Source of the DNA: a bacterium BMS3Abin08
Lineage (GTDB): Bacteria > Nitrospirota > Thermodesulfovibrionia > Thermodesulfovibrionales > JdFR-85
Length of the DNA: 39,932 nt
NCBI GenBank assembly: GCA_002897935.1
Contig: BDTA01000116.1
Coordinates: 1 to 39,932, forward strand
Direction: 5' to 3'
Shown here: positions 120-22,213 of the stretch, piece after piece
How positions within the stretch are numbered: the stretch's first letter is position 1
Layout: every line of letters starts with the position of its first letter
Program-made: the position numbers and the translations under genes
Notes under the pieces: model-generated
Databases searched by the model: none
The model's input: the letters and a program-made list of their open reading frames with translations, nothing else
Told to the model about the DNA's origin: nothing

Positions 120-1161
120 CTTGTATCCTTTCAGGTATCTCTACCTCAACCGTCATCCCGGGCTTCAACAACCCGCCAGGGTCTTCCAAAGCAACCTTGA
201 CCCTGAATGTCTTTATATCCTGCCTCCCCCGGCTAACGTCCCTCTGTGTTGCAAAACCGGCATATCTTCCTATCTCTGAAATCTTTCCCTTAAATACCCT
301 GCCGGGGATGTCTTCCGTCATGACCGCTGCAGGGCCGTTGAGTTTAATATCCCCGATCCTGGTCTCTTCCAGATCGATCCTGGCATAGAGATTTTTCAGG
401 TTAACTATTGTCAAAACCGCCGTCCCCGGACTTACTGTCTCGCCTTTTTCCAGCGCCCTGAAGACGACTGTTCCGGATAAGGGGCTTTTTATAGTTGCGT
501 AAGAGAGCCTGGCCAGGTTATATGCCAGATTTGCTTCAGACTGCCTGACGGCTGCCCACGCAGCGTTAAGACGGCTTTCGGCAGTGTTTAACTGCGCTTC
601 AGCAGCGTTCTTCCGTGAATATGATGCTGCAAGCCTTGCCTTCGAAGATTTGTAGTTTGCAACATTCGTCTTATAGGCGGTCACAGCCGCATCCAGAGAT
701 TCTTTTGAAATAAATTCCCTTATATAGAGAGCACTTGCCCTGTCCATCTGTCTTTTTGCCTCTTCCATACGGGCCGAGGCTCCTTTCATGTCGGCTTCGG
801 CGCTTTTAATATCCGCAACTGCGCTTGCAATATCAGCCCTTGAACTTTTGATCGCAGACCGTAATACCATGGCATCGGCTTTTGCCTTCTCAACGCCCGC
901 TTTTGCCTGCTCCACTAATGACCTGAGGTCATTATTTACGAGCCTGAGGACAACGTCTCCCTGCCTTACCGCGTCACCTTCACTGCAGCATATGTACGAA
1001 ATTGTGCCCGGCAACTCTGTTGAAATGTTGGTCTCAACACCCTCAATGATTCCGGATGTGGTTATGTATCCGGGGCTCTCCCCCCCTTTTGAAAAGAAAA
1101 GTACCAGGAGGGCGGCCGCTGCAATAACGATAATGGCAAAAAAAACCGTCCGTCTCTTCAT
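94..1161 (-). CDS. HlyD/MacA-family periplasmic adaptor protein
   Basis: A 355-residue membrane fusion protein. It has an N-terminal membrane anchor (about residues 6-24), a first half of the lipoyl/barrel-sandwich domain (about 45-75, with GDxVRQGDVVLRL), a long alanine-rich coiled-coil hairpin (about 78-215) that should dock on TolC, the second lipoyl half (SPLSGTVVFRALEKGETVSPG, about 228-248) and a beta-barrel and membrane-proximal domain ending in LKPGMTVEVEIPE. It bridges an inner membrane ABC transporter to the outer membrane channel. The gene lies 108 bases after tolC and overlaps the ABC ATPase start. The extended hairpin resembles YbhG/YhiI adaptors. The Cys-Cys pair near residue 58 is unusual for this domain. 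Substrate not deducible. Confidence 0.93.
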   Translation of the reverse strand: MKRRTVFFAIIVIAAAALLVLFFSKGGESPGYITTSGIIEGVETNISTELPGTISYICCSEGDAVRQGDVVLRLVNNDLRSLVEQAKAGVEKAKADAMVLRSAIKSSRADIASAVADIKSAEADMKGASARMEEAKRQMDRASALYIREFISKESLDAAVTAYKTNVANYKSSKARLAASYSRKNAAEAQLNTAESRLNAAWAAVRQSEANLAYNLARLSYATIKSPLSGTVVFRALEKGETVSPGTAVLTIVNLKNLYARIDLEETRIGDIKLNGPAAVMTEDIPGRVFKGKISEIGRYAGFATQRDVSRGRQDIKTFRVKVALEDPGGLLKPGMTVEVEIPERIQGGSGKQGG

Positions 1162-12961: not shown

Positions 12962-14167
12962 TCACTGGGGCATAGGACAGCTCGGGAGTTCGGCCTGTTC
13001 CTTTCTCACCGGTAGATACCACAACAGGCCATCCACAACCATGAATATCCCCGCAATAATAAGGATGACATCAAAGAGCGACAATAAACTGAGCCCGAAA
13101 TAGTGCAGCAGGCCGAGGCCGAGACTTGCAAAGGAAAAACCTGTCCGGATTAAGGCAAGCCCTGTCCTCGCCCGGGCATAGATGGTGCGGTAACATGCAG
13201 CCATTGTCCGTTGTCCTCCAAGCACACTCCTCTCCCGTGCAAGATGGGTGCGTTCCTTGCTGGATGGAGAGGGGTAGAGAATGGTGCAGTGGCTGGCCAG
13301 CAGATCGGCAATACGGGCAAGCATACTCTTCTTCTTGGATATCTCAACATCGGTGGTTTCAATAAGGTGATAGCCCTTTAGAAAACCCATGGTTGCATAG
13401 GTCATTCCCACAATAGTCCGGCGTTCGGGGGGATTCATTTCAGATCTCCGTATCTTCAGGTATCTTGATAAGCCGAAGAACCCGAGGAAAAATCCAGCAG
13501 CAATAATCGACCAGTAAAAGGGATATGTTATCGGCAGCTTTTTGGTCCGCATAAGGGTATTTGCTACGGCAATAAACCCGAGCCCCCACCTGAGGAAGGC
13601 AAGCCCGGTCCTTGCCGTTGCCATGTCGGTCCTGCAGCAAGCCAGTCTCGTCCGCCATTGGGCCATGGTGGTGCGCCAGAAGGAAAGACCGGTCCTCTCG
13701 GTACCCCAGAGATAACCCGGCCTTGCATGAAGGAAGTCCTGGATAAACCACTGAATATCTTCTGCAAGGGCCACCCGGAATTCGTATTTCTCTGCCTTGA
13801 TAAACCTTTTGGCCTCATCCAGTACCACAGGGTCTTCGGGATTGTTTGCCGCTATAATCACCGTATCACCATCCTTGATGACCGGAAACCACCGGCTTAT
13901 GGAAAGCATGTCCCCATTAACCGCCGATAATAACCCGGGCGGTATGAGCATTCTCTCGTCATACTCTATAGTGGGGCATTGATAATACTCCGAAAGCGCT
14001 TTGAGCAAAATAAACCGCGGGACATCATACTCTCTGAGAAGAACACTTTCAAGGTCGACACTCCTCGCAACAGCCGTATGCTCTGCTTTGCGGAGTTCCT
14101 CATCCGTCAGGATACCCCGTTCCACCAATATGAGAAATCCCTGCAATCCTGTGTTAGCGAGCATCAT
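12962..14167 (-). CDS. MshEN-like domain protein with two DUF202 modules and an Arg-Thr heptad ladder (second of pair)
   Basis: A 401-residue membrane protein. Residues 1-145 resemble the N-terminal domain of GspE/PilB/MshE ATPases (LVERGILTDEELRKAE, LSEYYQCPTIEYDERMLIP, ISRWFPVIKDGDTVIIAANNPEDP, FRVALAEDIQWFI), yet no ATPase follows. Instead there are two DUF202-type modules. Each begins with arginines spaced exactly seven residues, nearly all followed by T or S: R158, 165, 172, 179, 186, 193 and R306, 313, 320, 327, 334, 341. Each ladder runs into two membrane helices and the second module ends in LWYLPVRK. The ATG overlaps the end of the upstream partner by 14 bases, with AAGGTGG before it. 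Function unknown; see findings. Confidence 0.85.
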   Translation of the reverse strand: MMLANTGLQGFLILVERGILTDEELRKAEHTAVARSVDLESVLLREYDVPRFILLKALSEYYQCPTIEYDERMLIPPGLLSAVNGDMLSISRWFPVIKDGDTVIIAANNPEDPVVLDEAKRFIKAEKYEFRVALAEDIQWFIQDFLHARPGYLWGTERTGLSFWRTTMAQWRTRLACCRTDMATARTGLAFLRWGLGFIAVANTLMRTKKLPITYPFYWSIIAAGFFLGFFGLSRYLKIRRSEMNPPERRTIVGMTYATMGFLKGYHLIETTDVEISKKKSMLARIADLLASHCTILYPSPSSKERTHLARERSVLGGQRTMAACYRTIYARARTGLALIRTGFSFASLGLGLLHYFGLSLLSLFDVILIIAGIFMVVDGLLWYLPVRKEQAELPSCPMPQ

Positions 14168-15803
14168 GATTGAAACCCACCTTCTTCCAATAACGTGTCG
14201 GCCGGCCGTAATCAGGAATAATTGTTTCCATATCTCCAACACAATAGGGGAATTGTCTCCTTATTCTTTCAGCCGGTATATTCCAGTAAAGTCCATCGGC
14301 AATGACTGCCAGTCCGATCACTATCAGTGCAATATTAAACATGGCCCATGCAATATCAGCGGTGCCGAAATAAACCAGAAGCCCCGTGCCCACCGCGCAT
14401 ATGCTCCTTCCTGTCCTGATAAATGCCATTCCCGTCCGTGATCGGGCCATAACCGTGCGTAGTCTTGCCATCATATTTCTTCTGTCTGCGAGCACTGTCC
14501 TTTCAAGGGCAAGTCCCGTGGTAGCCCATATGCCCGGCGCATAGGAGGCCTTTGCCTGAAAAAAACGCTTATGGAAATCACCGGGACCTCCAATCACCCT
14601 GTGAACGGGAAGAGAGATGAAATCCCATGCCTTCCGGCTCTTTTTTTTCCTCATCACTGATTCAAAACCTTCTACACCGGCACGGCGGCCGGGGAAATAC
14701 CAGTAAAAGCCTTCCATGGCCATCATAATACCTGTCAGGATAAGGGCGGCATCGAATAACGTCCAGGGGCCGATAGCGAACTGCCTGAACAGCGCAATCC
14801 CAAGCCCGATAAAGGCAATCCCCGTACGGGTAAAGGCAAGCCCTGTGCGCGCCCTTGCCATCATCGTTCTGTAACATGCAAGGACCGTTCTTTCCTCGGC
14901 AAAATCCGTCCTGTCACTGGCAAGAAATCTGCGTCTCATCACAGGAGTAAGGTTATCCCAATCGGCACGGAGTTTATCCGCTCCGTCAATGGTATTCGTG
15001 CGCGTAAAGAAAGGATTGTTGCCGGGGTTTTGAACCTCAAGCAGCGTAGTTGCCCAGGTCGGCACTGTAGCAGCACAGTTTAAACGTTTCTTTCCGGCCT
15101 TCCGGGTCGGCAGGTACCATCTGAATCCATTCACTGATAGAACAACACCGGCTACTAAAAATAACGCTTCGGTTATGATTAAATACCCTATACCGAAAAT
15201 CCTGAGAAGTAGCAGGGCAATGGCTATAAAAGCTATCCCGGTGCGGAGGAAGGCAAGCCCCGTTCTGCCCTTTGCCATGGCGGTCCTGTAGCACGACATC
15301 AGGGAACGCCTGTCCGCAAGGAAGGTTCTCACCTTGGCAAGGGGGGTCCTGCCGCCCGAAAAAGGAAACCCGGGATTCACATCATTGTTGTTTTCAATAA
15401 TCCTGACGAGGTCTGAAGGCAGGGCGACGATGAAGTCTATTTTTTCCACGCCGAGGCTCTTTTTTATATCTTCAACTACCGCTGTGTCATCCGGCCTGTA
15501 AGCGATCACCTCAGCCCTGTCCTGCATAACGGAGAGGGGAAACCAGAGCGCCTGCTTGAGCTTCTCCATGTCCATACGTCTTGTGAGGAGGTAAGAAGCC
15601 ATAACCTCTTCATCATACTCCACAAAGGGATAACCGTAGAACTCAGAAAGACAGAACAGGATCTCATGCCTTGGAATACCCCTGACTATCAATAATTCTT
15701 CAGGGTATTTGCCTGAATCTTCCGATTCCTTTATGACCTCATCCAGCTCTTCCCTGGTCAGTAATCCCCTGCTGAGAAGTCTTTCAAATTTAGTATCCTG
15801 CAT
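14154..15803 (-). CDS. MshEN-like domain protein with three DUF202 modules and an Arg-Thr heptad ladder (first of pair)
   Basis: A 549-residue membrane protein, first gene of the pair. Residues 1-140 have the GspE/PilB/MshE N-terminal pattern (FERLLSRGLLTREELDEVI, LSEFYGYPFVEYDEEVM, KQALWFPLSVMQDRAEVIAY, IDFIVALPSDLVRIIE). Three DUF202-type modules follow, with arginine ladders at R152-159-166-173-180-187, R298-305-312-319-326 and R435-442-449-456-463. Each ladder leads into two membrane helices and a FRWYLPTRK / FYWYFPGRR / LYWNIPAER closing motif. So six membrane helices are predicted. There is no enzyme domain. ATG 15803 is preceded by TATACT eight bases upstream, suggesting a near-leaderless transcript. 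Confidence 0.87.
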   Translation of the reverse strand: MQDTKFERLLSRGLLTREELDEVIKESEDSGKYPEELLIVRGIPRHEILFCLSEFYGYPFVEYDEEVMASYLLTRRMDMEKLKQALWFPLSVMQDRAEVIAYRPDDTAVVEDIKKSLGVEKIDFIVALPSDLVRIIENNNDVNPGFPFSGGRTPLAKVRTFLADRRSLMSCYRTAMAKGRTGLAFLRTGIAFIAIALLLLRIFGIGYLIITEALFLVAGVVLSVNGFRWYLPTRKAGKKRLNCAATVPTWATTLLEVQNPGNNPFFTRTNTIDGADKLRADWDNLTPVMRRRFLASDRTDFAEERTVLACYRTMMARARTGLAFTRTGIAFIGLGIALFRQFAIGPWTLFDAALILTGIMMAMEGFYWYFPGRRAGVEGFESVMRKKKSRKAWDFISLPVHRVIGGPGDFHKRFFQAKASYAPGIWATTGLALERTVLADRRNMMARLRTVMARSRTGMAFIRTGRSICAVGTGLLVYFGTADIAWAMFNIALIVIGLAVIADGLYWNIPAERIRRQFPYCVGDMETIIPDYGRPTRYWKKVGFNHDAR

Positions 15804-22045: not shown

Positions 22046-22086
22046 TTAAAAAGGCATAAATTGCCGGATTATTTTGAGATAACAGA

Positions 22087-22173
22087 ATCCCTGGGGGAGG
22101 TGCAAACCTGAGAACCCTGTGAATGACACAGGGGACCCCTCGAACCTGAAACGGTTAATACCGACGTAGGGAA
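22087..22173 (+). ncRNA. TPP riboswitch (THI element)
   Basis: All conserved blocks are present: CCCTGGGGGAGGTGC, CTGAGA after a short helix, ACCC, a variable arm (CCTGTGAATGACACAGG), GAACCTGAAACGGTTAATACC and GACGTAGGGA closing the P1 stem against ATCCCTGG. It binds thiamine pyrophosphate and should switch off the downstream thiamine genes. Confidence 0.95.
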
Positions 22174-22175
22174 TG

Positions 22176-22213
22176 GGATGGGGCCGTATGCCATCCAGGG
22201 ATACGGTTTTTTT
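22176..22213 (+). terminator. Riboswitch expression platform: attenuator with competing stem
   Basis: CCGTAT (22184-22189) and ATACGG (22201-22206) form a stem followed by seven T: an intrinsic terminator. GGATGG (22176-22181) can instead pair with CCATCC (22191-22196), a stem that traps the first terminator arm in its loop. The two folds exclude each other, as in transcriptional riboswitches. Confidence 0.8.

Follow-up and report, generated by a model that had tools for sequence, protein, structure and literature searches.

Gene pair and domain organization

The locus comprises two genes on the minus strand of the window (the whole stretch of DNA analysed, 39,932 nucleotides). They encode the proteins P1 and P2, and both reading frames are found where the first-pass annotation had placed them. 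The likely start of P2 is the ATG at 14167, overlapping the 3' end of P1 in ATGATGCTCGCTAA. The features of the pair are as follows.

14154..15803, minus strand: P1, MshEN and three ladder-DUF202 modules, 549 aa
15387..15785, minus strand: P1 MshEN/GspE-N-type head, aa 7-139, c-di-GMP motif lost
15093..15350, minus strand: P1 module 1, predicted helix 152-203 with R152, 159, 166, 173, 180, 187; hairpin helix 209-237
14640..14945, minus strand: P1 module 2, predicted helix 287-341 with R291, 298, 305, 312, 319, 326; hairpin helix 348-388
14253..14519, minus strand: P1 module 3, predicted helix 429-479 with R435, 442, 449, 456, 463; hairpin helix 484-517
12962..14167, minus strand: P2, MshEN and two ladder-DUF202 modules, 401 aa from ATG 14167
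13730..14149, minus strand: P2 MshEN-type head, aa 7-146, c-di-GMP motif lost
13439..13699, minus strand: P2 module 1, predicted helix 157-208 with R158, 165, 172, 179, 186, 193; hairpin helix 215-243
12992..13252, minus strand: P2 module 2, predicted helix 306-357 with R306, 313, 320, 327, 334, 341; hairpin helix 363-392

P1 matches Pfam MshEN with an E-value of 1.3e-8 and DUF202 with 1.3e-13 over three stretches; the values for P2 are 1.7e-9 for MshEN and 3.1e-5 for DUF202 over two stretches. Both proteins score above the curated cut-off of DUF202 (PF02656), and both heads belong to MshEN (PF05157) by profile and by fold. Pfam matches no ATPase domain in P1 or P2, which sets both apart from the type II secretion and type IV pilus ATPases. 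The profiles thus bear out what had been read from the letters, namely a secretion-ATPase-type N-terminal domain that has no ATPase and is followed by three and two DUF202 modules. The WYxP-type ends described for four of the five modules are also present. An SPX regulatory domain was not matched in either protein, nor was a TTM/VTC polymerase domain by Pfam. Each protein ends in a short conserved tail with a cysteine, PYC in P1 (14157-14253) and CP in P2 (12965-12991), both modelled with low confidence.

AlphaFold2 models have a mean pLDDT of 80.6 and pTM of 0.75 for P1 (32 homologues), and 75.1 and 0.52 for P2 (31 homologues). In every module a single helix of about 52 residues is predicted to carry the whole ladder, continue as TM1 and pair with a return helix in a hairpin. 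The helical ladder proposed in the first-pass annotation is therefore seen in the models, each ladder on one continuous helix. Two membrane passes per module, judged from models and sequence together, would give all modules the same orientation. Foldseek matches of the helical part (ABC exporters and others) are weak and were treated as noise.

Distribution and pairing

A sample of 396 genomes from the phylum has P1 in 41, in one case as a contig-end fragment. The 41 loci analysed in detail are the other 40 and that of genome G015, all from Nitrospirota. In all 41, P1 and P2 are same-strand neighbours with overlapping reading frames, and the module count is exactly three in P1 and two in P2, so the two genes do co-occur, a point that the first-pass annotation had left to a homologue search. 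Among 61 relatives, own genome counted, 10 have full-length P1 adjoined by P2; the 36-genome tally of that search also counts MshEN-only and single-DUF202 matches. A scan of named genomes with single-sequence patterns matched only Nitrospirae SZUA-77, and no relative of the pair was found in the viral contigs and plasmids searched. Our literature search yielded no paper on DUF202 and MshEN together. The pair is a real, deeply conserved two-protein membrane system.

In a tree of modules, each of the five positions forms its own clade with support of 0.75-1.0, in a topology whose deeper branching is unresolved and whose outgroup is not cleanly separated. The five positions were therefore settled before the lineages sampled here diverged and show no later exchange, which fits a hetero-ring with a set place for each module. 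An apparent fusion of P2 with a histidine kinase in genome G376 (L105:280-2898) was rejected: P2 is frameshifted in its second module, and the frame runs on into the kinase.

The arginine ladder

The ladder arginines follow a strict 7-residue period: 152-187, 298-326 (plus R291) and 435-463 in P1, and 158-193 and 306-341 in P2. The residues first listed are exact in all five modules, and R291, if included, brings P1 module 2 to six. We numbered the layers from 0, the arginine nearest the membrane, outward to -5.

Layer 0: P1 187/326/463, P2 193/341
Layer -1: P1 180/319/456, P2 186/334
Layer -2: P1 173/312/449, P2 179/327
Layer -3: P1 166/305/442, P2 172/320
Layer -4: P1 159/298/435, P2 165/313
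Layer -5: P1 152/291/T428, P2 158/306

Five layers are complete across the modules, and the sixth is present in four of the five. Over the 41 loci, arginine at this spacing is conserved at 95-100% per site, with one exception among the 30 sites. This is T428 (P1 codon 428, window 14520-14522), just before module 3, a conserved gap in the outermost layer, threonine in the window protein and never arginine in the 41 homologues. Composition shuffles produce heptad arginine runs of at least six in 7 of 20000 cases for P1 and 3 of 20000 for P2, while the real modules are five with runs of 5-6. Shuffle rarity and conservation together argue that the ladder is not a product of chance. In G015 P1 (L042:2665-4257), 17 residues of module 2 are missing and the ladder is shortened; the deleted region holds R291 and R298 in the window protein.

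Within the heptad, position a is conserved as R, b as T, d as L and e as A across the 41 loci, and these four make up a conserved arc of the helix. Positions c and f are the most variable, and g is intermediate and module-specific. The residues at i±3/4 from each ladder arginine are L or A, so the charges are unpaired within the helix. The layer 0 arginine sits within the hydrophobic stretch. Ordinary DUF202 proteins of the same phylum mostly carry three heptad arginines (27 of 33; four in 4 and two in 2), for which the earlier figure of about two was too low. The ladder thus extends a family trait and is not an invention.

Relation to VTC and ordinary DUF202 proteins

The P1/P2 modules align with ordinary DUF202 in hhalign with a probability of 97.6% (E 3.9e-12), and a PDB search with ordinary DUF202 finds Vtc1 at E 0.003-0.005. 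Through this alignment K24, R31 and N38 of Vtc1 fall on ladder layers -2, -1 and 0, in agreement with the earlier statement that DUF202 is the membrane domain of VTC. The module profile alone did not find Vtc1 in the PDB, and VTC was not among the best 50 Foldseek matches of P1 or P2; the link is therefore indirect, through ordinary DUF202. The VTC channel is built from five TM1 helices at a stoichiometry of 3 Vtc1 : 1 Vtc3 : 1 Vtc4. Its lumen is lined by Vtc1 K24/R31 and Vtc4 K622/R629, each pair 7 residues apart, R31 of Vtc1 forms the narrowest point, and the basic residues of DUF202 are required for vacuolar polyphosphate (PMC9911596).

P1/P2 and the VTC membrane domain (Vtc1/Vtc3/Vtc4; PDB 7YTJ, 8I6V, 9UMG) share DUF202 kinship and basic residues 7 apart at matching positions of TM1. 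At 1:1, P1:P2 would also bring together five modules and two chains with large cytosolic heads, as VTC does at 3:1:1. Unlike VTC, the bacterial modules are fused in tandem on two chains, have two membrane helices rather than three, carry a ladder about three heptads longer, and are accompanied by neither SPX nor TTM polymerase. The pentameric state is that of VTC and is not established for bacterial DUF202 proteins. Stand-alone bacterial DUF202 proteins belong to the same Pfam family, and their two-helix arginine-heptad form (four in L027, for example) aligns in register with the modules; they differ in having a single module, usually three ladder arginines and no MshEN head. On the function of bacterial DUF202 (YidH), the literature search yielded nothing beyond a screen for D-alanine exporters; there YidH left D-alanine levels unchanged (PMC10299036).

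The MshEN-type heads

Foldseek matches the P1 and P2 heads to the N-terminal domains of MshE, PilF and PilB (MshEN, GSPII). The fold and the Pfam match are common to both groups, whereas P1 and P2 lack the attached ATPase and the c-di-GMP motif. The closest heads found by sequence are N-domains of GAF-like/MshEN proteins of about 770 aa in the same phylum (L013-L019), apparently GspE-type ATPases with an N-terminal GAF-like part. In other proteins, MshEN domains bind c-di-GMP through two RLGxx..G....LxxxLxxQ motifs with a 5-residue spacer (PMC5013675). Neither the strict nor the published relaxed form of this motif occurs in the 32 P1 or 31 P2 sequences, which mostly have F/E/K/R and S/A/Y at the sites of the key Gly and Gln. 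Loss of the motif in 63 of 63 sequences argues against the c-di-GMP control that the first-pass annotation had envisaged.

Genomic context

In most relatives the pair follows, on the same strand, a Usp-like gene, TSUP (TauE), TIGR02186 and two Usp genes, and precedes a HAMP histidine kinase, a single receiver and a PPDK_N/PEP-utilizers protein of about 870 aa. Several contigs end too early to tell, and with this limit the kinase directly follows P2 in 28 of 41 loci, with the stand-alone receiver next, the PPDK_N gene lies downstream in 30 of 41, and 25 of 41 have a same-strand TauE/TSUP gene no more than 9 kb upstream. In the PPDK_N and PEP-utilizers protein at L036:13525-16191 and its relatives, conserved downstream of the pair, the PEP/pyruvate barrel is undetected. 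None of the Usp, TSUP, TIGR02186, kinase, receiver or dikinase genes adjoins the window pair, and a search of the window genome found no ortholog of the dikinase. Both the window locus and L041 carry the pair with no adjoining kinase, receiver or dikinase and with the ladder largely kept. The pair can thus persist without its operon neighbours. Elsewhere in the window, a TPP riboswitch (22083-22190, Rfam RF00059) lies upstream of likely thiamine genes.

A proposed pseudo-pentameric pore and its alternatives

We propose, with close to even chances of being right, that P1 and P2 together build a VTC-like pseudo-pentameric DUF202 pore from covalently tethered modules, its lumen lined with arginines and its cargo an anion or polyanion. 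The 3/2 module count and the overlapping same-strand genes in all 41 loci suggest such a pore. P1 and P2 would form an obligate 1:1 inner-membrane complex, in which the five hairpins (3+2), all in the same orientation, would close into a ring like the VTC membrane domain. The count of five is a fact; from it we infer the ring. The five long first helices would line the pore, and their arginines would form a stack of roughly six layers, five of them complete and the sixth holding four, that reaches from a shaft on the cytoplasmic side into the membrane. These layers may carry or hold the anion or polyanion, and the two heads, having no c-di-GMP site, may serve in assembly, gating or partner docking.

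A credible though doubtful alternative is a signalling scaffold with no pore, in which the helices bearing the arginines would bind anionic lipids or partner proteins at the membrane and the heads would dock the kinase/receiver or a secretion component. The downstream kinase and receiver speak for it, as does the PilB/GspE-N fold of the heads, one such head having been solved with PilZ bound (PDB 7lko). However, the ladder is largely kept at the two loci where kinase, receiver and dikinase do not adjoin the pair, and a lipid-binding face poorly explains why five modules agree layer by layer or why an arginine lies inside the hydrophobic stretch. It is unlikely that P1:P2 partners the TSUP transporter of the operon in conducting or binding an inorganic anion, be it a small sulfur oxyanion or some other. 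In that role the ladder would resemble the arginines that guide anions through phosphate porins (OprP, for example). The upstream TSUP, TIGR02186 and Usp genes fit this reading, but TSUP does not adjoin the pair in the window or at several further loci, and a filter for small anions would hardly seem to need so long a ladder.

The earlier proposal of a polyphosphate channel or translocase under c-di-GMP control is very unlikely, even though the VTC kinship and the c-di-GMP binding of MshEN elsewhere favour it, given the missing motif and the missing enzymes. PPK1 occurs in 81 and PPK2 in 133 of the 396 genomes; neither occurs in any of the 41 pair-bearing genomes, by a comparison of genome lists made by eye in which the two groups are different families, so that mutual exclusion may be inherited. 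A search for the VTC polymerase domain in the 61 relatives, own genome included, found none. Together these absences disfavour polyphosphate made by PPK or VTC as the polyanion. The window genome yielded no known polyanion synthase. Also very improbable is polyanion export without PPK or VTC polymerase, in which a P1:P2 pore under kinase/receiver control would take a phosphate-rich polymer from the co-encoded dikinase, the protein with no detected PEP/pyruvate barrel. Candidate cargoes are a dikinase product, TSUP-handled sulfur oxyanions or another polyanion.

Of the earlier interpretation, the domains, the ladder, its continuous helix and the link to the VTC membrane domain stand, whereas c-di-GMP control is unsupported and polyphosphate is disfavoured. 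New relative to it are the total of five modules (3+2), the strictness with which that number is conserved, and the operon setting. Should the ring of the proposed pseudo-pentameric pore exist, bacteria that lack the classical polyphosphate enzymes would have a covalently tethered, hetero-specific version of the VTC pore, with an arginine ladder roughly twice as long. It would also offer a two-gene system in which each ring module can be mutated singly, and a testable mechanism for DUF202, a widespread family with no settled bacterial function.
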